From positions 1,490,743-1,554,742 of the forward strand of contig NC_051119.1 in the NCBI RefSeq assembly GCF_014839805.1: 64,000 nucleotides of DNA. The letters run 5' to 3'. The position numbers and the translations under genes were made by a program. The stretch comes from Manduca sexta. Lineage: Eukaryota > Arthropoda > Insecta > Lepidoptera > Sphingidae. Positions 5,546-29,838 of the stretch are shown piece after piece. The notes below the pieces were generated by a model. The model did no database searches. It was not told the DNA's origin and saw nothing but the letters and a program-made list of their open reading frames with translations. Numbering within the stretch: position 1 is the stretch's first letter; each line of letters opens with the position of its first letter.

Positions 5546-6159
5546 AAATAAAAATAATTAACAATATACATATTATAAGTTCTTTATGAGGTTGACAAGC
5601 GAGACAGTGAGTTGTTTGCTGATAAGCGATCACCACGACCCATAAAGAACCACAATTATCGATACAAATTAGCCGGATTTATTAAAACGATTTTGAATAT
5701 ACTTGATGAGACAATGTGACACGTATTCCAATTTGCTAATACCTAAACTGTTTAGTATTAGTGTATCTATTCCCAAAGGCTAGTACAACCCAGTGATGAA
5801 CGGTGAAACTTTCCCAAAGGGTACCCGCTACAGTATAGTATTAATAATATGCATAAATGTGGTGTGAAATGTTTTAATGATAATTAGATTTTACATGTTA
5901 CGAATGGGAAGCTTAGCACCCGTTCACGAGTATGACGCATGTGCCAGCCATCGACCTCCTCAGCCATATTGTAGGGAAGTGGCCGACCCGTCACACGACG
6001 CCGCCGCAGGTACAGACAGTTAGAGAGTATTTCATACCCAAGCCGCCTACAGTTACATTACGAAAAATATAATATATCTATCAAGTGACATGATTCCAAA
6101 GAAAATCACACAAAAATGCTTAGTCCCAGGCATTTATATCCTCCAGGTATTCTGAGATC

Positions 6160-16863: not shown

Positions 16864-18045
16864 ATGGCCGCAACACAACATGATGCCCTAACGAGTTCGC
16901 TGATGCGCACAGTGACGTGCCACCTGTCGTCGTCGTCAACAACAACCTCCCCGCGGCACGCACAACTGTGTCTGAATGCCTACTGGCCATCCATAAACTC
17001 ACTAAAAAGATCATAACTACAATCAACACTGGCAAAAGTGTCACTTCGGAGAACAAGAAGGCGACCATTGCATTCGCCAGTGAAATCAGCACAATCACTA
17101 AAGAAATCAGCAACTTGTGTCAGACGAAACTCACTCTCAATCAAATCAAAGAAGACATTAAAGCTACCATCCGAGAAGAAGTTGCAAAACACACGGCGAC
17201 AGTTGCGGGCGCTGCAGTGCCTGCCCCCATCGCCACCAACACCAGTGCAAGGACATACGCGGCGGTAGTGGCATCTAATAACAACACACCTACACCTACA
17301 CCTTCACCGAAACCTGTCAGCAAGCCAGCGCTCATAGTCTCCTCCACTGACAACATCACTGACGCCAAAGAAGTCATCACCTGCGTCAAGAGGGAGGTGA
17401 CGTCCCGCGGCACGGGATCCGCACCGACTAAAATCCAGCCAATCTCCAAGAATAGAGCGGTCGTCGGTCTTACAGCCGTTCCTGTCAGAAAACGTAGGCC
17501 CATGCTCATGCTTAAAGGCATAGCGAAGGAAATCAAAGCCAAAGAACTAATCAGCGTCATTTTGGGACAAAACCCCCACAATCACAGAGGCCTGCGAAAA
17601 TCAAAACAACGACATCGCCATCAGATTTATCAGAGACAACCGGAAGGACTGGTTATACAACGCCGCACTGGTCACGACACCCAGAGTGTGGCGAGCGTTC
17701 ATTGCACTCGAGCGAATCAACATTGAATATCAGCGTGTACACGTTGAAAATTACACTCCGTTCCTTCACAGCTTTGCTTGTCTGCAATTTGGGCACACAA
17801 AGAATCGGTGCACGTCTACCAATACACGCTGCCGCTTCTGCGCTTCTAACGAACATAAGGACTCCGATTGCCCCGATCGTACTAATAGCGAAGCCTTCAA
17901 GTGTCATAACTGCGTCACCATCAACAATAAACGAGGACTAGATACGGACGTAAATCACGTGGCCACCTTGAATCGGTGCCTACTTGTTCGGAAAATACGT
18001 GCAAATATCTTCGCCCAAGTCGACTATGGCCAACAAGAAGAATAG
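16864..18045 (+). pseudogene. LINE copy 1 ORF1: gag-like protein with zinc knuckles, frameshifted
   Basis: A likely start ATG at 16864 is out of phase with the main frame by an indel near 16880; the main frame then runs to about 17575, and another shift leads to the frame ending at 18045. The N-terminal half is helical and charged, the middle is Thr/Pro-rich, and VKREVTSRGTGSAP starts the conserved gag fold. The C-terminus has zinc knuckles: an incomplete CLQFGHTKNRC, an intact CRFCASNEHKDSDC, and a third CHNC...H...C. Such proteins bind the element's RNA. Its last 20 nt overlap the start of ORF2 in another frame, the usual compact arrangement. Confidence 0.8.
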
Positions 18046-21000
18046 TAAGAACAACCAAAATAACTGTCCAACGAACAATAATATTAATATTATTCAATGC
18101 AATCTAGATCGAAGCTATAACAGCTACCAAGAATTGTTACAATACCTTGAGGACAATAGCTGCGACATAGCCCTGATTTCTGAACCATATGTTGGCAAAG
18201 CCCTTATAATAAAAACGCCACCCGGATACGATGTGCATCAGTTTCCCGCCGACGACGAGCACCCGATGAAAGCAGCAATAATCATTAACAAAACGCTTGG
18301 CTACACCCTGGGAATCAGCCAGTTTTCATCCACCAATTTGGCCACCATGCTGATAAAGATCGGCAACCGCAACATCTACATATCCAGCGTATACGTGGAA
18401 CCTAACGAAGACAAAAACAACACTATATTGAAGTTAGAACGTTTCATCGATTGCACCAAAGACTCGCACCGCATAATCGGTGGCAACTTCAATGGCTGGC
18501 ACCAGGTGTGGGGATCACCCAAGGCGAACAAGCGAGGAATAGATGTCATGAACCTCATAATCAATAAAGAACTCACCGTCTGCAACATTGGAGAAGCACC
18601 AACCTTTGAAAACATCACTCACGGGAAATTAAGACAGTCTATTATCGACCGCACCATTGCAACACCAAACCTTAGCAACCAAATTCATCAATGGAAGGTC
18701 TCTGGCGATGTTTGCACGACATCTCAACACAATGCAATATCATACATCCTGGCCCTGGACCATAAACCCAGTAGAAACAAAAGTCAAACCACATACAAAT
18801 ATAATACTAATGACGTCTACTGGGATATCTTCACAACACAACTAACCAAAGGCTTGGAAGCGGCCATGCTCACCAACACAGACGACATCGCAGCATTCGG
18901 CCAAACAGCATTGGACGAATACATCGACAAGATAACAAAAACAATACAAACCACCTGTAAACGGCTCTTTCCTACAAAAAGAAAATTCCCCACCCGCGCT
19001 CCCTTCTGGAACGACAAACTGGAACAATTGAAATCGCAGCTTTTCAAAATCCATCATAATATCAGTACTAACAAAAGCAGAGGTATGCCATATGAAGAAC
19101 TACAGAAGGAACAAGGTGAGAAAGCCAAAGAATATTCTGCGGCCATCCGACAAGAATCCACTGCTCACTTCCGCAATTTCTGTAGCTTTCAAGGTAAAGA
19201 GAATGTATTTTCACTCACAAACCGCCTCCTCAAATGCGCCCCTCCGCGCAAACCACCGGCCACTCTATATATCGATGGCAAATATACCAATAATGCCCAA
19301 GATACGGCTGCTGCGATTATACAGAAATTCTTTCCGGACAATGACAGAAGTGAAGACAACCCCACACAAGAAAAAAATCAGACAAGACTCATGCAACATC
19401 CCCGATACTCCAAACGACCCACCCTTTTCGGCGGATGAGGTTCTCGAATGCCTGCAATCTGTGAACCCCCAAAGAGCCCCCGGCATGGACCATCTGACGT
19501 CGGATATATGCCTGCAATTCGCAAAGGCTTCCCCCTCAATTGTTACGGGAATAATGAATCGATGCCTGAAACTCGAATACTTCCCTAGAGCTTGGAAGCA
19601 GGCTTTTGTCAAAATTCTTCCTAAACCCGGCAAAACTGACTACACAAGCATGTCTTTATATCGACCAATCGGGCTCATTTGCATGCTGGGGAAAGCGCTG
19701 AAGAAATTAATCGCAAAAAGGATAACATATCACCTCGGCACATCTAACAATATGCACCCTCAGCAATATGGTTTTCGAGAACAAAAGTCAACCACGCAAG
19801 CCCTCAACATTGCCATTGAAATATTCAAGCGCGCCAAACAAGCAAAACGACACGTCATAGGTGTGTCGCTGGACATCCAAGCGGCCTTTGATAATGCCTG
19901 ATGGCCCGCGCTCTTCAACAGACTACAGGCCGCAAAATGTCCCAGGAACATCTATTAGATCATGAAGAACTATACACTCAATAGACAAACACACATAAAC
20001 TTTGCTGACACAACCACACACAAAGACATGACCCGAGGGTGCATCCAGGGATCTGTGTTGGGACCGCTCATATGAAATTTGATTCTCGATGAACTATTAG
20101 AGATAGAATTGCCTGACGGCTGTCACATTCAAGCATATGCAGACGACGTTCTACTTATCGTGCAAAACAATGATCTTACCAGCCTACAAGATAACACCAA
20201 CAAAGCTCTTGAACTGATCACTAAATGGGGCGAAAAGGTGAAGCTTAAGTTCGGCCCGAACAAAATTCAAATGGTCGCGTTCATACGCAAAGCACACACA
20301 ACGAATATACGAATGCAGGGTCAAGCTATCCAACTTCAGGATGAACTTAAATTGCTAGGAGTCAGAATCTATAAGAATCTGCGTTTCATCAAACACATAC
20401 ATCATATTATTAGCAAAGCATATAAAATATACAACTGCCTATGCAGATATATTAGACCCACATGGGGAATCCACTCCGATAATGTAAGAATCATATATTT
20501 ACATGTCATACAGCTGATCATTACGGATGCAGCTGGCATATGGCACTCTGCCATCAAATATAAGCACGTCAAACAAAAGCTCAAATCCTTCCAACGCGGA
20601 TTCACAATAAAGGCTATACGAGGTTTCCGCACTGTGTCCGGTACCGCTTCCATTGCATTGTCTGATTTGACTCCACTGCACGCCAAAATCATGAAAGTGG
20701 CCATGACTGAACAGACCAAACTCACATCGACCACGGTGCATTTACCTGACGACATAATCCTTGAGACGCCAGCACCACTGCATTCACTGCTGCACCCCTC
20801 AGCGAGAATAAACATGAAGATCCTTACAGCTCCCACACAAGAAATTACCTCTGCACTCGGCGATCATTACACCACCACGAAAATTTACACTGACGGTAGC
20901 AAAATCGACGGACATGTGTGTGCAGCCTTCGTCGCCCACCACTCCAATGGAGACACCAGAACCGTACGCATTTACAAACTACATAGCAGCTGTTCGGTCT

Positions 21001-21659
21001 TCCAGGCCGAACTTCTCGCAATAAGAAAAGCCTGTGACTGGACCATGGGGAAAAAGCTACAAGACACCATCATCTACACAGACTCAATGAGTGCCGCTAG
21101 AGAAATTGAAAACCCGAGTAGTACCAACCCACAGGTAGTCCAAATACATAAGATCATCAACCAAATAAATGAATCCAGTCATAATATCAACATCGCCTGG
21201 GTAAAAGCACACGTCAGCATTGTGGGCAACGTAGAGGCGGACACTGCCGCTAAAGCCGCTGCTCACTCACACCGAGCGCAGGAGTAAAATTACTTTCCTA
21301 TCAGTTTCGTCAAACACATAACAAGAAATCAAAGCATACTTGACAGTAATACCGCATATACAACCGAACGTCAGGGGCAACACACGCGGAATGTCCTGCC
21401 CAATAAAGACGTTATCCAGAAACTTCAAGAAGCCATAGAGATCGACTTTGCCTGGACGCAGGTACTCACCGGGCATGGGTACTGCTTGCAGTACCTACAT
21501 CGCTTCAAGATTTCTGCGACCGACAAGTGCCCCTGTAATCCTGACACCGTGCAAACATTCAAACACCTGCTCGAGGAATGCCCCCGCTTCACCCAAGCCA
21601 GACAGCCACATGAAGAAATCTGCCACCACTGTGATCTCGAACCGTATAACATAGCTTAA
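18026..21659 (+). pseudogene. LINE copy 1 ORF2: endonuclease, reverse transcriptase, RNase H; inactive
   Basis: The ATG at 18026 starts an APE-type endonuclease (NIIQCNLDRSYNS, LISEPYVGK). Its GDFN motif reads GNFN and the closing SDH motif reads SQH, so two catalytic Asp residues are lost. A frameshift near 19350-19430 leads into the reverse transcriptase (YGFREQKSTTQA, VSLDIQAAFDNA, GCIQGSVLGPL, AYADDVLL). In-frame stops lie at about 19898 (TGA), 19953 (TAG) and 20070 (TGA). An RNase H domain follows (YTDGS, ELLAI, YTDS, WVKAH, EADTAAK; all catalytic residues present), then TGHGYCLQYLHRF and a CPC...H...EEC motif. Copy 2 reads some codons further at the C-terminus, because copy 1 has a 4-bp deletion near 21655. 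Confidence 0.88.
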
Positions 21660-22225: not shown

Positions 22226-23050
22226 ATGGACACGCAAAATTCTACGTCTTGCACCAGCTGCGGGGAAGTGAAATCAAAAATACAAGAGCTGGAACTCCGG
22301 CTGGCACATCTCGAAAACGTTATTTCTCAGCAACAACACACCATAAACAGCCTCACCAAAACACCTCATTCTCACATACATCTTAAGTCGGATGAAAATT
22401 ACACTAATTATACTTCTGCCCCCCCCCCCCACATCCAGCCATACAACACTTGCCGAACTGCTGGCCGATCCGTTCGGTGAACGGTTCGACCAGCACAACA
22501 CATCTCCCCTCCCGTCACACACTGATGGGACGGTGACTCCATGGCAGCACGGTAGACACATCAATGCTGAAATCGCCACGTGCAGTACATCGACACACTC
22601 CGCTTTGTCGCACTCTGCTGCGGCAGGGAGTGACATCGGTGGTGACACCACTGGCACTGGGGGGAACAACTGCACCCAGAACAATAATAACCATATAAAC
22701 ATCAACCCTTGTCCCACCCCAACCAACCAACAACCACCAACCGATCAAGTAACAACACCGCTTCAACCAAACGCAGAAACACCTACATCGGGTTCATCTA
22801 TCACACAGTGCGTTCTGTGTGGCCGGACATTAAAACACTTTAATGTAGCTGAACACTATCGCACCTGGCACAAAAGCGTACCATATAAGCGCACGCGCGG
22901 CCCAATCGCCCCAGGACAGAAACAATACAGCTTCACCTCCCCCAGATTTCAAAACTTCAAAATACATGCCCCCGGGAGTTACGCTGGCCCCTGGACATTT
23001 TTCTTGTCACCGAGGGTGCAAACAGAACATTTTACGAATACGATCAATGA
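22226..23050 (+). pseudogene. LINE copy 1 ORF3: zinc-finger/coiled-coil accessory protein, frameshifted
   Basis: The ATG at 22226 starts a protein with CTSCGEVK, then a leucine-rich coiled coil (QELELRLAHLENVISQQQ, about residues 20-40). A Thr/Pro/Asn-rich middle follows, then a C2H2-like finger CVLCGRTLKHFNVAEHYRTW with its final His, and a basic KRTRGPIAPGQ stretch. A frameshift occurs at a run of C residues (22418-22431). A second shift, from about 8 extra bases near 22950-22966, separates the finger from the conserved C-terminus that ends at TGA 23048-23050. Over those last 28 codons copy 1 and copy 2 differ in 14 codons, 11 of them synonymous, so the frame was under selection. I know no standard LINE protein with this make-up; its function is unknown. 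Finger plus coiled coil suggests nucleic-acid binding and self-association (inference). Confidence 0.75.
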
Positions 23051-23413
23051 TCACACACATACCATCACTCGCGTGCGGTCCAGCCAGCATGTAATCTCTC
23101 TCCCAATGAACTTAATATCATCTTTGATGTTTTATACTATTGTAAATAATTAAAATACCTTGACATTGAAAAATACCTACTGCCAATGATTACACAAAAA
23201 AAAAGGAAAAAAATAACAATTTCTTAATAATATCAATCATAATAACAATAAATGAACTCCTTTAATAATCTTCTAGATGAACAACGAATGCCATCGTTTC
23301 GTTACGCCATATATGACTTTTTCTAGTTAATTTTGTTACTTTACTTTAATTGTCTGCATAATATACTATTGGGGAAAAAATGTATAAAAATGTTATCGTG
23401 TAGTGCATAATAG

Positions 23414-23456
23414 GGTGGAACGTGCCCGCGACTATACATCGCGTGCACGTTCCACC
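23414..23456. repeat. Hairpin A (first copy)
   Basis: GGTGGAACGTGC (23414-23425) pairs perfectly with GCACGTTCCACC (23445-23456). Confidence 0.8.
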
Positions 23457-23655
23457 TCGAACTAAGATTTGGAGTTAATTTTGTAAGTGTAATCTATGAC
23501 TTTATACTATTTTAATTTCCTAACTCAAAAGCGTTAAAACCAATTATAATTCCATTAATACGAATGCTGGCATATTGCTTTGTCACATAACTGTACACAG
23601 ATGCCACATCTGTATAAAGAAATTATTGTATTTTACTAGTTGATTCTAAGTGAAA

Positions 23656-23697
23656 ACGAAGCGTGCTCTCGAAAATTCCGACGCGACCATGCTTCAT
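23656..23697. repeat. Hairpin B (first copy)
   Basis: ACGAAGCGTG and CATGCTTCAT pair at 8 of 10 positions. A related copy is at 24240-24284. Confidence 0.55.
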
Positions 23698-23923
23698 CTT
23701 AATCAAGTAATCAGTATGACTTTATACTATTTTAATTTTCTAACTCAAAAGCGGTAAAACCAATTATTATTCCATTAATACGAGACACAACACGAACAAC
23801 GAATGCTGGCACATTATTTTGTCACATAATTTTAATTTTTGAATTGATTCTAGTTAATTTAGCTTCTTTCTTTACTTTATAATATACTATAGGGGGGAAA
23901 TGTTATTGTGTAATGCACAATAA

Positions 23924-23966
23924 GGTGGAGCGTGCTCGTGACTATACTTCGCGTGCACGTTCCCCC
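23924..23966. repeat. Hairpin A (second copy)
   Basis: GGTGGAGCGTGC pairs with GCACGTTCCCCC at 10 of 12 positions, 510 bp after the first copy. Confidence 0.65.
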
Positions 23967-24239
23967 TTAAACTCAAATGTATGCAGAACACTATCTGTAA
24001 TGGCTCCCTAACCAGTATATTTAATTTGTATTTTGTAGTTTTTTTTTTGAGCTAATTTTATATAAGCGTAATCTATGACTTTATACTATTTTAATTTCCT
24101 AACTCAAAGCGGCAAAACCAATTAATATTCCATTAATACGAATGCTGGCATATTACTTTGTCACATAACTGTACATAGGTGCTATATCTCTATAAAGAAA
24201 TTATTGCATTTTGTAGATTTCTAGCTGATTGAAGGAAAA

Positions 24240-24284
24240 ACGAAGCGTGCTCTCGAAAAGAATCCCGACGCGACCATGCTTCGT
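24240..24284. repeat. Hairpin B (second copy)
   Basis: ACGAAGCGTG and CATGCTTCGT pair at 9 of 10 positions, 584 bp after the first copy. Confidence 0.6.
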
Positions 24285-24523
24285 CTTAATCGTCTGATCT
24301 ATGTTAATTTAACTCGTTATAACCCTGTAATATCCACAAATATCTTTTCTATTATCTTTAGCTAATAATCATTACCTAGTGGAAAAAAAAAATTGTGCAT
24401 AAACTCATTCATTGATTGATTGATTGATTAATTACTCCAAACCAAACAAAACAAAAACCAAACTGAATTACTATATAATTAAAAGCAGAATAAAATTCAT
24501 CAATCAATCACTTTATTCACTGA

Positions 24524-24583
24524 CACATCGGCGATCACTCTGAGCGATAACACACTAACTCGCTCTGAGTGGTCGCCGATGTG
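24524..24583. repeat. Hairpin C, 23-bp arms
   Basis: Arms at 24524-24546 and 24561-24583 pair at 21 of 23 positions around a 14-base loop. The arm starts CACATCGGCGATCACTC. Confidence 0.85.
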
Positions 24584-24667
24584 CAGTCCTTATCCTTATC
24601 CTTTCTTTCCCAATTCCTCCTTCCTTACCCTCCCTTCCCATTCCCCTCCTAAACTCCCTTGGCCCCT

Positions 24668-24728
24668 GCAGTCGTTAAGCCGGGAGGAACCAGTATACCG
24701 TTCGCAGGTTCCTCCCGGTGTTGACTGC
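24668..24728. repeat. Hairpin D, close to the element 3' end
   Basis: The inner stem CCGGGAGGAACC (24680-24691) pairs perfectly with GGTTCCTCCCGG (24707-24718). The outer stem GCAGTC pairs with GACTGC (24723-24728). It lies 28 bp before the A-rich tail ends; a 3' structure can be a recognition site for the element's reverse transcriptase (inference). Confidence 0.8.
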
Positions 24729-24756
24729 GGGATCAGCCGCTTAAAAAAACAAAAAA

Positions 24757-24771
24757 CCTAACCTTACTAGG
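24757..24771 (+). repeat. Target-site duplication, right, of LINE copy 1
   Basis: CCTAACCTTACTAGG, matching 8649-8663, with the rare CTAGG variant. It directly follows the A-rich tail. Confidence 0.8.
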
Positions 24772-27138
24772 AGACATTATGTTCGAACCTAACCTTACTC
24801 GGAGACATTATGTTCGAACCTAACATTACTCGGAGACATTATGTTTAAACCTAACCTTACTCAGAGACATTATGTTCAAACCTAACCTTACTCGGAGACA
24901 TGTTTAAACCTAACATTACTCGGAGACATTATGTTTCAACCTAACCTTACTCGGAGACATTATGTTTAAACCTAACCTTACTCAGAGACATTATGTTCAA
25001 ACCTAACCTTACTCGGAGACATGTTTAAACCTAACATTACTCGGAGACATTATGTTTCAACCTAACCTTACTCGGAGACATTATGTTCAAACCTAACCTT
25101 ACTCGGAGACATTATGTTCGAACCTAACCTTACTCGGAGACATTATGTTCGAACCTAACATTACTCGGAGACATTATGTTCAAACCTAACCTTACTCGGC
25201 GACATTATGTTCAAACCTAACCTTACTCGGAGACATGTTTAAACCTAACATTACTCGGAGACATTATGTTTCAACCTAACCTTACTCGGAGACATTATGT
25301 TCAAACCTAACCTTACTCGGAGACATTATGTTCAAACCTAACTTTACTCGGAGACATTATGTTCAAACCTAACCTTACTCGGCACATTATGTTCAAACCT
25401 AACCTTACTCGGAGACATGTTTAAACCTAACCTTACTCGAAGACATTATGTTCAAACCTAACCTTACTCGACGACATTGTATTTAAACCTAAATTTACTC
25501 GGCGACATTCCTGGACTTACTCGGAGACATTATGTTCGAACCTAACCTTACTCAGAGACATTATGTTCAAATCTAACCTTACTCGGCACATTATGTTCAA
25601 ACCTAACCTTACTCGGCGACATTATGTTCAAACCTAACCTTACTCGGAGACATTATGTTCAAACCTAACCTTACTCGACGACATTATGTTTAAACCTAAA
25701 CTTACTCCGCGACATTCCTAACCTTACTCGGAGACATTATGTTCAAACCTAACCTTACTCGGAGACATTATGTTCAAACCTAACCTTACACGACGACATT
25801 ATGTTTAAACCTAAACTTACTCCGCGACATTCCTAACCTTACTCGGAGACATTATGTTCAAACCTAACCTTACTCGGAGACATTATGTTCAAACCTAACC
25901 TTACTCGGAGACATTATGTTTCAACCTAACCTTACTCGGAGACATTATGTTCAAACCTAACCTTACTCGGAGACATTATGTTCAAACCTAACCTTACTCG
26001 ACGACATTATGTTTAAACCTAAACTTACTCCGCGACATTCCTAACCTTACTCGGAGACATTATGTTCGAACCTAACCTTACTCGGAGACATTATGTTCGA
26101 ACCTAACATTACTCGGAGACATTATGTTCGAACCTAACCTTACTCGGAGACATTATGTTCAAACCTAACCTTACTAGGAGACATTATGTTCGAACCTAAC
26201 CTTACTCGGAGACATTATGTTCAAACCTAACCTTACACGACGACATTATGTTTAAACCTAAACTTACTCCGCGAAATTCCTAACCTTACTCGGAGACATT
26301 ATGTTCAAACCTAACCTTACTCGGAGACATTATGTTTAAACCTAACCTTACTCGGAGACATTATGTTTCAACCTAACCTTACTCGGAGACATTATGTTCA
26401 AACCTAACCTTACTCGGCACATTATGTTCAAACCTAACCTTACTCGGAGACATGTTTAAACCTAACCTTACTCGAAGACATTATGTTCAAACCTAACCTT
26501 ACTCGACGACATTGTATTTAAACCTAAATTTACTCGGCGACATTCCTGGACTTACTCGGAGACATTATGTTCTAACCTAACCTTACTAGGAAACATTATG
26601 TTCGAACCTAACCTTACTCAGAGACATTATGTTCAAATCTAACCTTACTCGGCACATTATGTTCAAACCTAAACTTACTCGGCGACATTATGTTCAAACC
26701 TAACCTTACTCGGAGACATTATGTTCAAACCTAACCTTACTCGACGACATTATGTTTAAACCTAAACTTACTCCGCGACATTCCTAACCTTACTCGGAGA
26801 CATTATGTTCAAACCTAACCTTACTCAGAGACATTATGTTCAAACCTAACCTTACTCAGAGATATTATGTTCAAACCTAACCTTACTCGGAGACATTATG
26901 TTCAAACCTAAACTTACTCGGCGACATTATATTCAAACCTAACCTTACTCGGCGACATTATGTTCGAACCTAACCTTACTCGGAGACATTATGTTCAAAC
27001 CTAACCTTACTCGGAGACATATGTTCAAACCTAACCTTACTCGGCACATTATGTTCAAACCTAACCTTACTCGGAGACATTATGTTCAAACCTAACCTTA
27101 CACGGAGACATTTTGTTCGAACCTAACCTTACTCGGCG
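24757..27138 (+). repeat. 31-bp satellite, array 2 (main array)
   Basis: About 77 monomers in the same orientation as array 1. The array has higher-order structure: a shortened monomer containing ACTCCGCGACATTCC recurs at about 25706, 25821, 26029, 26268 and 26772, and a block with GGAGACATGTTTAAACC followed by a TTTCAACC monomer recurs near 24895, 25018 and 25230. Confidence 0.95.
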
Positions 27139-27164
27139 TTGTATTTACAGTAGTATAAAACATC

Positions 27165-27498
27165 TAATAATAAAAATAAAAATAAATAAAATACTTTATT
27201 TATCACGTAGGCGAACAAAGTTGCACTTATGATACGTCAAAACAAAGAATAAGAAGAATTATTATTTCTAAACAACTATTAAAATCACTTATATAACTAT
27301 GGAGATTTTAAATTAGGGATAAAGTTTATACAAAAGACTAGGTACAAACCGAAGTAACCAGCTCGGGCTGGCAAGTAGGGGGAAATAGAAGGGTAACGCG
27401 TCGCGATCCTCACCGGTGAGGACATGAGCCCTAGCCTAGCTAACCTACCAGCCTTTCACTAGCTACCTAAGTGATGACTACACGAAGATCGATTGGGA
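27165..27498. mobile_element. 334-bp insertion inside LINE copy 2 (SINE-like)
   Basis: It splits the copy-2 sequence equal to 23112-23123 of copy 1. One end is an AATAATAAAAATAAAAATAA-type A-rich tail (plus strand, left), next to CTTTATTTATCACGTAGGCG. The other end is more GC-rich. It has no ORF. No clear target duplication was found. Confidence 0.5.
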
Positions 27499-27567
27499 TT
27501 CAGTTCATTAGGAGAGAGATTACATGCCGGCTGGCTGGTCCGCACGCGAGTGATAGTGTGTGTGCGA

Positions 27568-27870
27568 TCATTGATCGCATTCATAAAATGCTCTGTTCGC
27601 GCCCTCTGTGACGAGGAAGATATCCTGGGGCCAACGCAGCTCCCGAGGGCATGTTTTTTGGAACCTGGGGAAGGTGAAGCAGTATTGTGTCTGTCCTGGC
27701 GCTATCGGACCACGTGTGCGCTTATATGGCACACTTTTGTGCCAGGTGCGATAGTGCCTCTCAGGATGTATGTGTGAGTGAGGTGTGCTGGTGAGGTTGT
27801 TTATGGTGTGTTGTTGTTGAGAAATAACATTTTTGAGATGTGCCAGTCGAAGTTCTAACTCGTAGTAACT
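27568..27870 (-). pseudogene. LINE copy 2 ORF3 remnant
   Basis: Encodes ELELRLAHLKNVISQQQHT, then jumps by an internal deletion to HYRTWHKSVPYKRTRG and runs in one frame to the same TGA as copy 1, through a TCPRELRWPQDIFLVTEG-type C-terminus. The deletion removes the CxxC half of the finger and the whole middle. The N-terminal CxxC is also gone. Confidence 0.8.
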
Positions 27871-27930
27871 CGTTCTAACATGTTGGGTAGATGTATAGGT
27901 TTGAGAAAGTTTAAGAAAGTTTAGTGATGT

Positions 27931-27964
27931 TAATGAGAGTCTAAAGCGGGTATGTGCGTATATA
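27931..27964 (-). promoter_or_regulatory. Possible ORF3 core promoter, copy 2
   Basis: On the minus strand TATATA (27964-27959) is followed by TCATTA (27936-27931), about 28 bp from element start to element start. This mirrors the copy 1 arrangement at 22142-22176. Confidence 0.4.
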
Positions 27965-28435
27965 GGGGGGAAGGGGGTGCTTGTAGTGGTCACAATGTGG
28001 GGTTATGATGAGCGATTGTTATGGTGTGTGACACGCGTTGTGTTGTTAGAGTGATGTTGAGGTTGCAGAAATGAGTAAGTACGAACGTTGACTAAGTGGT
28101 TTTGTATGTGACTAGGAGTGCGTATGCGTGTATGTGAAGCAAGCATGCAAAATAGTAAAGTGTGTACATGAGTATATTATGTAGATATGTAGCAACCGTT
28201 TTGAGTGATGGTATAAGCGTAGTATATTGCCACAAATATGGAGTGTTGCGCGTTATATGAATCAGTGTCATTACCATTCACCTATGTGCGTTACATAAGT
28301 AAGCCAGCATGTTTACATATGTATACGATGTCTGCTACACGCCACAGCGTCGTTGCTAGTTATTATATATGTGTATTATATGTTGTTATATTCTTTCAGT
28401 TGCGACACTATGGCGTGCAGCAGTTGGTCAAGTGA

Positions 28436-29771
28436 TTAGATACATTTCTTATTATCAATTAAACTAACTATGTTATACGGTTCGAAATCACAGTGGTGGC
28501 AGATTTCTTCATGTGGCTGTCTGGCTTGGGTGAAGCGGAGGCATTCCTCGAGCAGGTGTTTGAATGTTTGCACGGTGTCAGGACTGCAGGGGCACTTGTC
28601 GGTCGCAGATATCTTGAAGCGATGTAGGTACTGCAAGCAGTACCCATGCCCGGTGAGTACCTGCGTCCAGGCAAAGTCGATCTCTATGGCTTCTTGAAGT
28701 TTCTGGATAACGTCTTTATTGGGCAGGACGTTCCGCGTGTGTTGCCCCTGATGTTCAGTTGTATATGCCGTATTACTTTCAAGTATGCTTTGATTTCTTG
28801 TTATGTGTTTGACGAAACTGATAGGAAAGTAATTGTACTCCTGCACTCGGTGTGAGTGAGCAGCGGCTTTAGCGGCAGTGTCCGCCTCTTCGTTGCCCAC
28901 AATGCCGACGTGTGCTTTACCCAGGCGATGTTGATATTATGACCGGATTCATTTATTTGGTTGATGATCTTATGTATTTGGATTACCTGTGGGTTGGTAC
29001 TACTCGGGTTTTCAATTTCTCTAGCGGCACTCATTGAGTCTGTGTAGATGATGGTGTTTTGTAGCTTTTCCCCATGGTCCAGTCACAGGCTTTTCTTATT
29101 GCGAGAAGTTCGGCCTGGAAGACCGAACAGCTGCTGTGTAGTTTGTAAATGCGTACGGTTCTGGTGTCTCCATTGGAGTGGTGGGCGACAAAGGCTGCAC
29201 CTACATGTCCGTCGATTTTGCTACCGTCAGTGTAAATTTTCGTGGTGGTGTAATGATCGCCGAGTGCAGAGGTAATTTCTTGTGTGGGAGCTGTAAGGAT
29301 CTTCATGTTTATTCTCGCTGAGGGGTGCAGCAGTGAATGCGGTGGTGCTGGCTTCTCAAGGATTATGTCATCAGGTAAATGCACCGTGGTCGATGTGAGT
29401 TTGGTCTGTTCAGTCATGGCCACTTCCATGATTTTGGCGTGCAGTGGAGTGAAGTCAGTCAATGCAATGGAAGCGGTACCGGACACAGTGCGGAAACCTC
29501 GTATAGCCTTAATTGCGAATCCGCGTTGGAAGGATTTGAGCTTTTGTTTGACGTGCTTATATTTGATGGCTGACTGCCACATGCCAGCAGCGTACGTAAT
29601 GATCGGCTGTATTACATGTAAATATATGATTCTTACATTATCGGAGTGGATTCCCCATGTGGGTCTGATATTTTTGCATAGGCAGTTGTATATTTTGTAT
29701 GCTTTGCTGATAATATGATGTATGTGTTTGATGAAACTCAGATTCTTATCGAATATGCATCCTAGCAATTT
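28436..29771 (-). pseudogene. LINE copy 2 ORF2 remnant: RT thumb, RNase H, C-terminus
   Basis: The frame from about 29771 to 29031 covers NLSFIKHIHHIISKAYKIYN through YTDGSKIDGH and ACDWTMGK; a frameshift leads to MSAAREIENPSS, and another to GNEEADTAAKAAAHSHR and the C-terminal LTGHGYCLQYLHRF and CPCSPDTVQTFKH...EEC motifs. The stop follows DNKKCI, about 10 residues beyond the stop in copy 1. Palm and endonuclease are missing through 5' truncation. Confidence 0.85.
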
Positions 29772-29838
29772 ACTCGGCGATATTATGTTCAAACTTAACC
29801 TTACTCGGAGACATTATGTTCAAACCTAACCTAACTTG
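29772..29838 (+). repeat. 31-bp satellite, array 3 (two monomers)
   Basis: Two satellite monomers, one with TATTATG and AAACTTAACC variants, directly follow LINE copy 2 and then give way to unrelated DNA. They are the right flank of the array interrupted by copy 2. Confidence 0.9.

Follow-up and report, generated by a model that had tools for sequence, protein, structure and literature searches.

Which gene, if any, lies downstream of ORF2 in a pair of LINE copies from the tobacco hornworm is the question raised by a 64-kb stretch of the Manduca sexta genome (64,000 nucleotides, here called the window). It contains two copies of one retrotransposon, W1 on the plus strand and W2 on the minus strand, and the initial annotation proposed that both carry a third open reading frame, ORF3, whereas descriptions of LINEs usually list one or two ORFs. 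We consider it probable, at roughly 60%, that the W1 segment derives, in decayed form, from a genuine third LINE gene. The gene encodes a protein of 265-266 residues under purifying selection, which is predicted to oligomerize via a coiled coil, likely binds RNA or target DNA via a C2H2-like finger, and is likely an accessory of the retrotransposition particle.

As read from the assembly, the gene order of the element is ORF1 (a zinc-knuckle gag), ORF2 (endonuclease, reverse transcriptase (RT) and RNase H), ORF3 and a long 3' UTR (Table 1). The zinc knuckles of W1 ORF1 were recognized by eye, and a Pfam match is absent. The proposal that an endonuclease-RT-RNase H LINE precedes ORF3 was borne out by Pfam. 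ORF3 is not the last part of the element: W1 continues for about 1.7 kb of repeated hairpin units up to a stem-loop and an A-rich tail near position 24745. This long 3' UTR, like the mosaic genes and the ORF3-lacking element treated below, goes beyond the initial annotation. Nor are positions 22226-23050 a single frame, since W1 ORF3 shifts frame twice. The ATG frame starting at 22226 stops at 22478-22480, the middle and the finger lie in a different frame (ORF 22392-23153), and the last 28 codons are in the first frame again. The first break sits at a run of C, and the assembly JHU_Msex_v1.0 started from nanopore reads according to the accessible part of its description (PMC8022704), so that this break is possibly an assembly error. 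The features ascribed to both copies (CxxC start, coil, low-complexity middle and C2H2-like finger) are found in W1; W2 has lost the middle and both CxxC pairs.

Table 1 Features of the two LINE copies in the window (positions of the window; aa, amino acid)
Feature	Position	Strand	Basis
ORF1 of W1, zinc-knuckle gag-like, frame-broken	16864..18045	+	78% aa identity to open L011 ORF1, 400 codons
ORF2 of W1, frame-broken: endonuclease, RT, RNase H, C-terminal Cys/His stretch	18026..21659	+	Pfam PF14529, PF00078, PF00075
ORF3 of W1, N-terminal part (CxxC start, coiled coil) to the stop past the frame break	22226..22480	+	72-77% aa identity to L011/L009 ORF3
Coiled-coil stretch, ORF3 residues 11-44	22256..22357	+	AlphaFold2 helix 11-44 in relative P0001
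ORF3 of W1, low-complexity middle and finger, shifted frame	22418..22955	+	65-67% aa identity to L011/L009 ORF3
C2H2-like finger, C-x2-C-x11-H-x4-H	22809..22871	+	Alignment; translation; low-confidence beta-beta-alpha model
ORF3 C-terminal 27 conserved codons and stop, first frame again	22967..23050	+	83-86% aa identity to L009/L011
3' UTR, repeated units with hairpins	23051..24745	+	Repeats; folds; L013 match up to 24750
Long hairpin within 3' UTR	24524..24583	+	Inverted repeat; fold z-score -10.2
Terminal stem-loop directly before A-rich tail	24665..24731	+	Fold z-score -5.7; 7/23 pairs changed on both sides
ORF3 remnant of W2: internal deletion fuses coil to basic patch and C-terminus	27568..27861	-	Sequence comparison
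W2: 3' half of ORF2 and ORF2-ORF3 spacer	27862..29772	-	Inverted repeats I1-I6, I10, 93-99% complementary to W1; similarity profile

Two further observations concern nearby sequence. Between the inverted copies, positions 24757-27140 of the window hold a satellite array with a 31-base unit (CCTAACCTTACTCGGAGACATTATGTTCAAA and variants), and about 330 bases of unrelated sequence (27160-27500) interrupt the 3' UTR of W2 just past ORF3.

The ORF3 protein was searched against the M. sexta genome, an assembly of 4056 contigs and 470,002,661 bases. We obtained 18 matches at 10 places, which represent 8 distinct loci, namely C21 (L011), C3674 (L009), W1, W2, C28 (L013), C22 (L036), C27 (L037) and C1 (L038), and two haplotig-like copies (C1712, 98.5% to C21; C394, 98.2% to C3674). 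A repeat search with the most distant member as query recovered 9 of the 10 places, C1 being the one missing. The frame is open at two of the eight loci, with 265 codons in L011 and 266 codons in L009; these two individual copies speak against the absence of an intact ORF3, which the initial annotation had named as a refuting outcome. The L009 ORF3 is letter-for-letter identical to the annotated M. sexta protein O3G_MSEX009069 (P0001). ORF2 lies upstream of ORF3 at five of the eight loci, including L009, which shows the last 31 ORF2 codons at the contig edge. The initial annotation had named occurrence without ORF2 as a sign of an independent repeat, and L036, L037 and L038 indeed lack an upstream ORF2 within the stretch read; L036 keeps the LINE terminal hairpin after ORF3, as expected of a 5'-truncated LINE copy. 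Outside M. sexta, protein searches of 5.8 billion sequences (E<=0.01 and E<=1) returned only the M. sexta protein, and no relatives were found in viral contigs at the thresholds used; the species search covered protein databases and viral contigs and, among eukaryote genomes, the host alone.

The third ORF is supported as a selected gene by several sequence comparisons. The dN/dS ratio (Nei-Gojobori) was 0.276 between the L011 and L009 ORF3s (bootstrap 0.17-0.47, 261 codons) and 0.181 between L011 and W1 (bootstrap 0.11-0.26, 257 codons). Both intervals exclude 1, in agreement with the earlier claim of selection on the protein. The low-complexity middle is the least constrained part (0.29-0.44), with lower values (0.07-0.26) towards the ends. 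Substitutions were most frequent at the third codon position, both between L011 and L009 (20/13/31 for the three positions) and in the three pieces of W1 ORF3 pooled (57/34/101). An exact recount of 22967-23050 against 27651-27568 reproduced the numbers reported for the two window copies, with 14 of 28 codons differing, 11 of them synonymously, and a common stop. Even in L037, a relative of about 47% identity, the C-terminal ORF3 pattern and the stop position are still recognizable. Moreover, none of 2000 dinucleotide shuffles of L011 ORF3 reached an open frame of 265 codons, the longest having 258. A chance open frame is thus rejected by dN/dS, by the synonymous codon pattern and by the shuffles.

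With ORF2 on one side and a conserved 3' end on the other, ORF3 sits inside the element. The 3' ends of L011, L009, L013 and the copy on C7 consist of a homologous stem-loop and poly(A); poly(A) also follows the stem-loop in L052-L055, and the tail is less pure in W1. Among seven hand-chosen sequences, 95.7% of the pair cells of the terminal stem-loop are kept, and 7 of 23 pairs are altered on both sides, which none of 500 shuffles reached. The pair types are not above the shuffles (495 of 500 were as high), and the double changes may represent few events, because the same changes separate L011 and L009 from the other five sequences. The stem-loop is far commoner than ORF3, with at least 43 matches from 40 scored of 589 candidates. 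Four further 3' ends were read and none had a detectable ORF3. These copies are variously strongly 5' truncated, starting just past the ORF3 position, internally deleted or insert-bearing; the insert between ORF2 and the 3' end of one of them is presumably a DNA transposon. Since the stem-loop is also present in copies that yielded no ORF3, ORF3 is not needed for recognition of this structure in general.

Additional arrangements were noticed at such 3' ends. In L042 (C21:15149187-15152897) and L054 (C4:3883190-3886000), ORF2 breaks off and the 3' UTR repeats follow at once; its remaining part and ORF3 are absent. On C260, C1171 and C2469, relatives of ORF1 (32-41% identical) are followed after only about 1 kb by a match to the terminal stem-loop, as judged by coordinates alone; these could be gag-only elements without ORF2.

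The element shows the features of a LINE, namely an endonuclease-RT ORF2 (with Pfam endonuclease, RT and RNase H domains), poly(A) tails and 5'-truncated copies (L053, L036), and no LTR-like pair was present among the direct repeats found in window positions 15000-40000. The two-ORF description does not fit it, as a selected ORF3 is present at eight loci. For the endonuclease domain, TRAS1 ORF2p was the only PDB match at E<=0.001 (E 1.7e-20). At E 1e-60, ORF2 has 292 relatives, some of which are named R1DM-like by their sources; among the 120 matches listed, many are unnamed, and the named organisms are moths, butterflies and Halotydeus destructor, which we take to be a mite. Judged by these similarities, we call the element R1-like, short of a proven R1 member.

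With the TRAS/SART elements of Lepidoptera, which belong to the R1 clade, the M. sexta LINE shares the TRAS1 endonuclease match as well as a poly(A) end, and their 3' UTR is important for retrotransposition according to the available parts of PMC4700185 and PMC7265360. The same sources describe them as two-ORF elements, in contrast to the M. sexta LINE with its RNase H domain and ORF3. TRAS/SART elements target telomeres, and two of five M. sexta ends have a CCTAA-type flank: the A-rich tail is followed by CCTAACC in W1 and by (CCTAAA)n in L011, and the flanks after poly(A) in L009, L013 and C7 are not CCTAA repeats. Telomere targeting as an explanation is unsupported, as the flanks differ between copies. 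The TRAS LINEs with an SF1 helicase, as outlined in the accessible portion of PMC5563155, are likewise lepidopteran R1-related LINEs with an added accessory function, but their viral-type domain is fused to ORF2, while ORF3 is a separate downstream ORF for which no relative was found. Type II coiled-coil ORF1 proteins such as L1 ORF1p (PMC4120745, seen in excerpt) resemble ORF3 in combining a coiled coil with a presumed nucleic-acid-binding part. The L1 ORF1p type has an RRM-CTD, whereas ORF3 carries a C2H2-like finger, lies behind ORF2 in an element that also has a zinc-knuckle ORF1, and lacks a Pfam match above the cut-off. A LINE with such an ORF3 was found neither in the literature searched (titles and beginnings of abstracts, with few subscription journals and with Repbase outside the scope) nor in the accessible parts of PMC7998251, PMC4700185, PMC4120745, PMC5563155 and PMC7265360.

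What kind of protein ORF3 encodes is indicated by its anatomy, which runs from an N-terminal CxxC through a helix (residues 11-44), the low-complexity middle, a C-x2-C-x11-H-x4-H motif and a basic patch to the conserved C-terminus. AlphaFold2 modelled the helix of P0001 with mean pLDDT values of 83, 95 and 92 for residues 11-20, 21-30 and 31-40, and oligomerization through this N-terminal coiled coil is predicted. The full-length model, based on a four-sequence alignment, has a mean pLDDT of 42.1 with 217 of 266 residues below 50 and is unreliable outside the helix. Classical C2H2 zinc fingers follow C-x2-C-x12-H-x3-5-H, with a hydrophobic core, and bind zinc. The finger peptide alone gave a beta-beta-alpha model at low confidence (pLDDT 62); in Foldseek it gave 49 weak matches, many of them C2H2 fingers, among them the best one, with an E-value of 1.9. 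Pfam returned nothing above the cut-off for ORF3, zinc-finger families included, NCBIfam gave no match and a PDB sequence search none of significance.

Comparison of the copies further revealed that neighbouring genes of the element differ in relatedness. At the amino acid level, identity between L011 and W1 is 78% for ORF1 and 75% for ORF3, but the endonuclease and RT-RNase H reach no more than 39% and 51%. The ORF1 of the C7 copy is close to its L011 counterpart (dS 0.16), and the match stops at the ORF1 stop; the ORF2 of this copy is nearer to W1 (84% aa, dS ~0.9-1.0) than to L011 (41-51% aa, saturated). Between C26 and C2109, which may be separate insertions, ORF1 (dS 0.06) and about 1.1 kb upstream (86%) are common, while the adjoining endonucleases are 48% identical with saturated dS. 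Along ORF1 and roughly 73 codons of ORF2, L040 follows L011 with a 95% match; beyond that point the two diverge. W1 and W2 agree at about 90-100% in 100-base windows up to ORF3 and at 77-89% within or entering ORF3; this pair is no basis for mosaicism, because gene conversion between nearby inverted copies could explain the drop. As a separate observation, a long simple-repeat run splits ORF2 in L044+L050 (C26:999-9900), near the scaffold end, and is open in several frames.

Taken together, genes have apparently been exchanged between related elements, giving neighbouring genes unlike histories. Such mosaics may have arisen through template jumps between RNAs with a common 3' terminal stem-loop. 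DNA recombination is an alternative, as is insertion of a truncated copy between ORFs, which the available text of PMC4120745 proposes. Chimeric assembly seems less likely, because the pairs C7-L011, C26-C2109 and W1-L011 all switch at the ORF1/ORF2 border. A 31-row ORF2 tree, built from L011, W1 and L013 together with 28 of the 120 matches listed among 292, placed L011 next to a group of P0002, W1 and L013 with support 100/99, and none of the 27 other rows fell between the M. sexta ORF2 lineages, which argues against a recent ORF2 capture from another LINE clade and for an earlier split within the group. The reticulate LINEs with exchanged ORF1 described in the accessible part of PMC4120745 are similar in that ORF1 and ORF2 histories differ. 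Exchange there took place between the CR1 and L2 lineages; in M. sexta it concerns related elements of a single genome, includes ORF3 and has its junctions close to the borders of genes.

The C7 copy also bears on the need for ORF3. In this copy, the ORF2-ORF3 spacer, at a point corresponding to 31 bases before the L009 ORF3 start, is joined directly to the first base beyond the ORF3 stop. The copy has an open ORF1, which measures 433 codons from stop to stop, and an ORF2 split over two frames (352 and 928 codons) that overlap. The L011-type spacer occurs at four places, three with ORF3 (one of them haplotig-like) and one, C7, without. The loss may have happened before or after insertion. As one element lacks exactly ORF3, the gene is probably helpful but not strictly required in cis. 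Just upstream of ORF1, the 5' region of this copy (L041) holds an open frame of 335 codons, which looks to us like a Tc1/mariner transposase. In the L011 spacer (5990-6130), TATA-like and acceptor-like sequences were noted, which might serve a separate ORF3 transcript.

Most likely, ORF3p is a putative oligomeric, nucleic-acid-binding helper of the LINE particle that acts on the element's own RNA. We favour this reading because of the anatomy of the protein, because its gene precedes a structured 3' UTR and because ORF3 has persisted next to dissimilar ORF2s. ORF3p would oligomerize, would bind zinc and nucleic acid, and would either package the element RNA or present its hairpin-rich 3' end to ORF2p.

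The finger might instead bind genomic DNA, for example CCTAA-type repeats, and as a target-site tether steer the particle to preferred sites. We consider this unlikely. The presence of one C2H2-like finger next to a basic patch, the CCTAA-type sequences behind the W1 and L011 tails and the match of the endonuclease to the telomere-specific TRAS1 are in line with it, but the other three flanks differ, no common site was seen at the 3' ends of the four additional copies that yielded no ORF3, and one finger alone usually confers weak DNA specificity.

Rather improbable in our estimate is a counter-defence protein directed against piRNA or siRNA silencing. There is a precedent in TRAS LINEs of Lepidoptera, whose virus-like helicase has been proposed to suppress silencing in the available part of PMC5563155, and both the accessory nature of ORF3, which is not bound to one ORF2 lineage, and the higher dN/dS of its middle would suit such a role. 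However, ORF3 showed no similarity to a known silencing suppressor in the libraries searched, and it is the coil and the finger that are best conserved, rather than a rapidly evolving interface.

We give poor prospects to the view that ORF3 is a dispensable passenger, now eroding, on which selection acted in the past alone. The small number of open loci, the precise loss in C7 and the persistence of related 3' ends without a detectable ORF3 would agree with this. Yet a dN/dS of 0.28 at a dS of 0.2 between L011 and L009 indicates that constraint lasted until the open copies arose, and erosion is not peculiar to ORF3, as ORF1 or ORF2 is also broken in W1, L011 (one in-frame ORF2 stop), C7 and C26. 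An independent repeat or a host gene adjoining LINEs by chance, the reading that the three loci without ORF2 in the stretch read might suggest, is rejected as the main explanation and has next to no standing beside the five loci with ORF2 upstream, the terminal hairpin after L036 ORF3, and the spacer and post-ORF3 sequence common to the ORF3-lacking C7 copy.

The particle helper and the mosaic genes might be parts of one picture, which we put forward tentatively and with the odds against it. Here, ORF2 proteins would copy one another's RNAs by way of a common 3' stem-loop, cassettes of ORF1, ORF2 and ORF3 would be swapped among reassorting LINEs through template jumps at gene borders, and ORF3p would represent a new class of coiled-coil, single-finger LINE proteins involved in packaging or presenting the hairpin-rich 3' UTR. 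Overall, a separate, selected third protein provides a testable handle on the functions that a LINE particle needs. In addition, the reshuffling of LINE genes becomes directly testable where one genome contains almost identical ORF1s next to dissimilar ORF2s.
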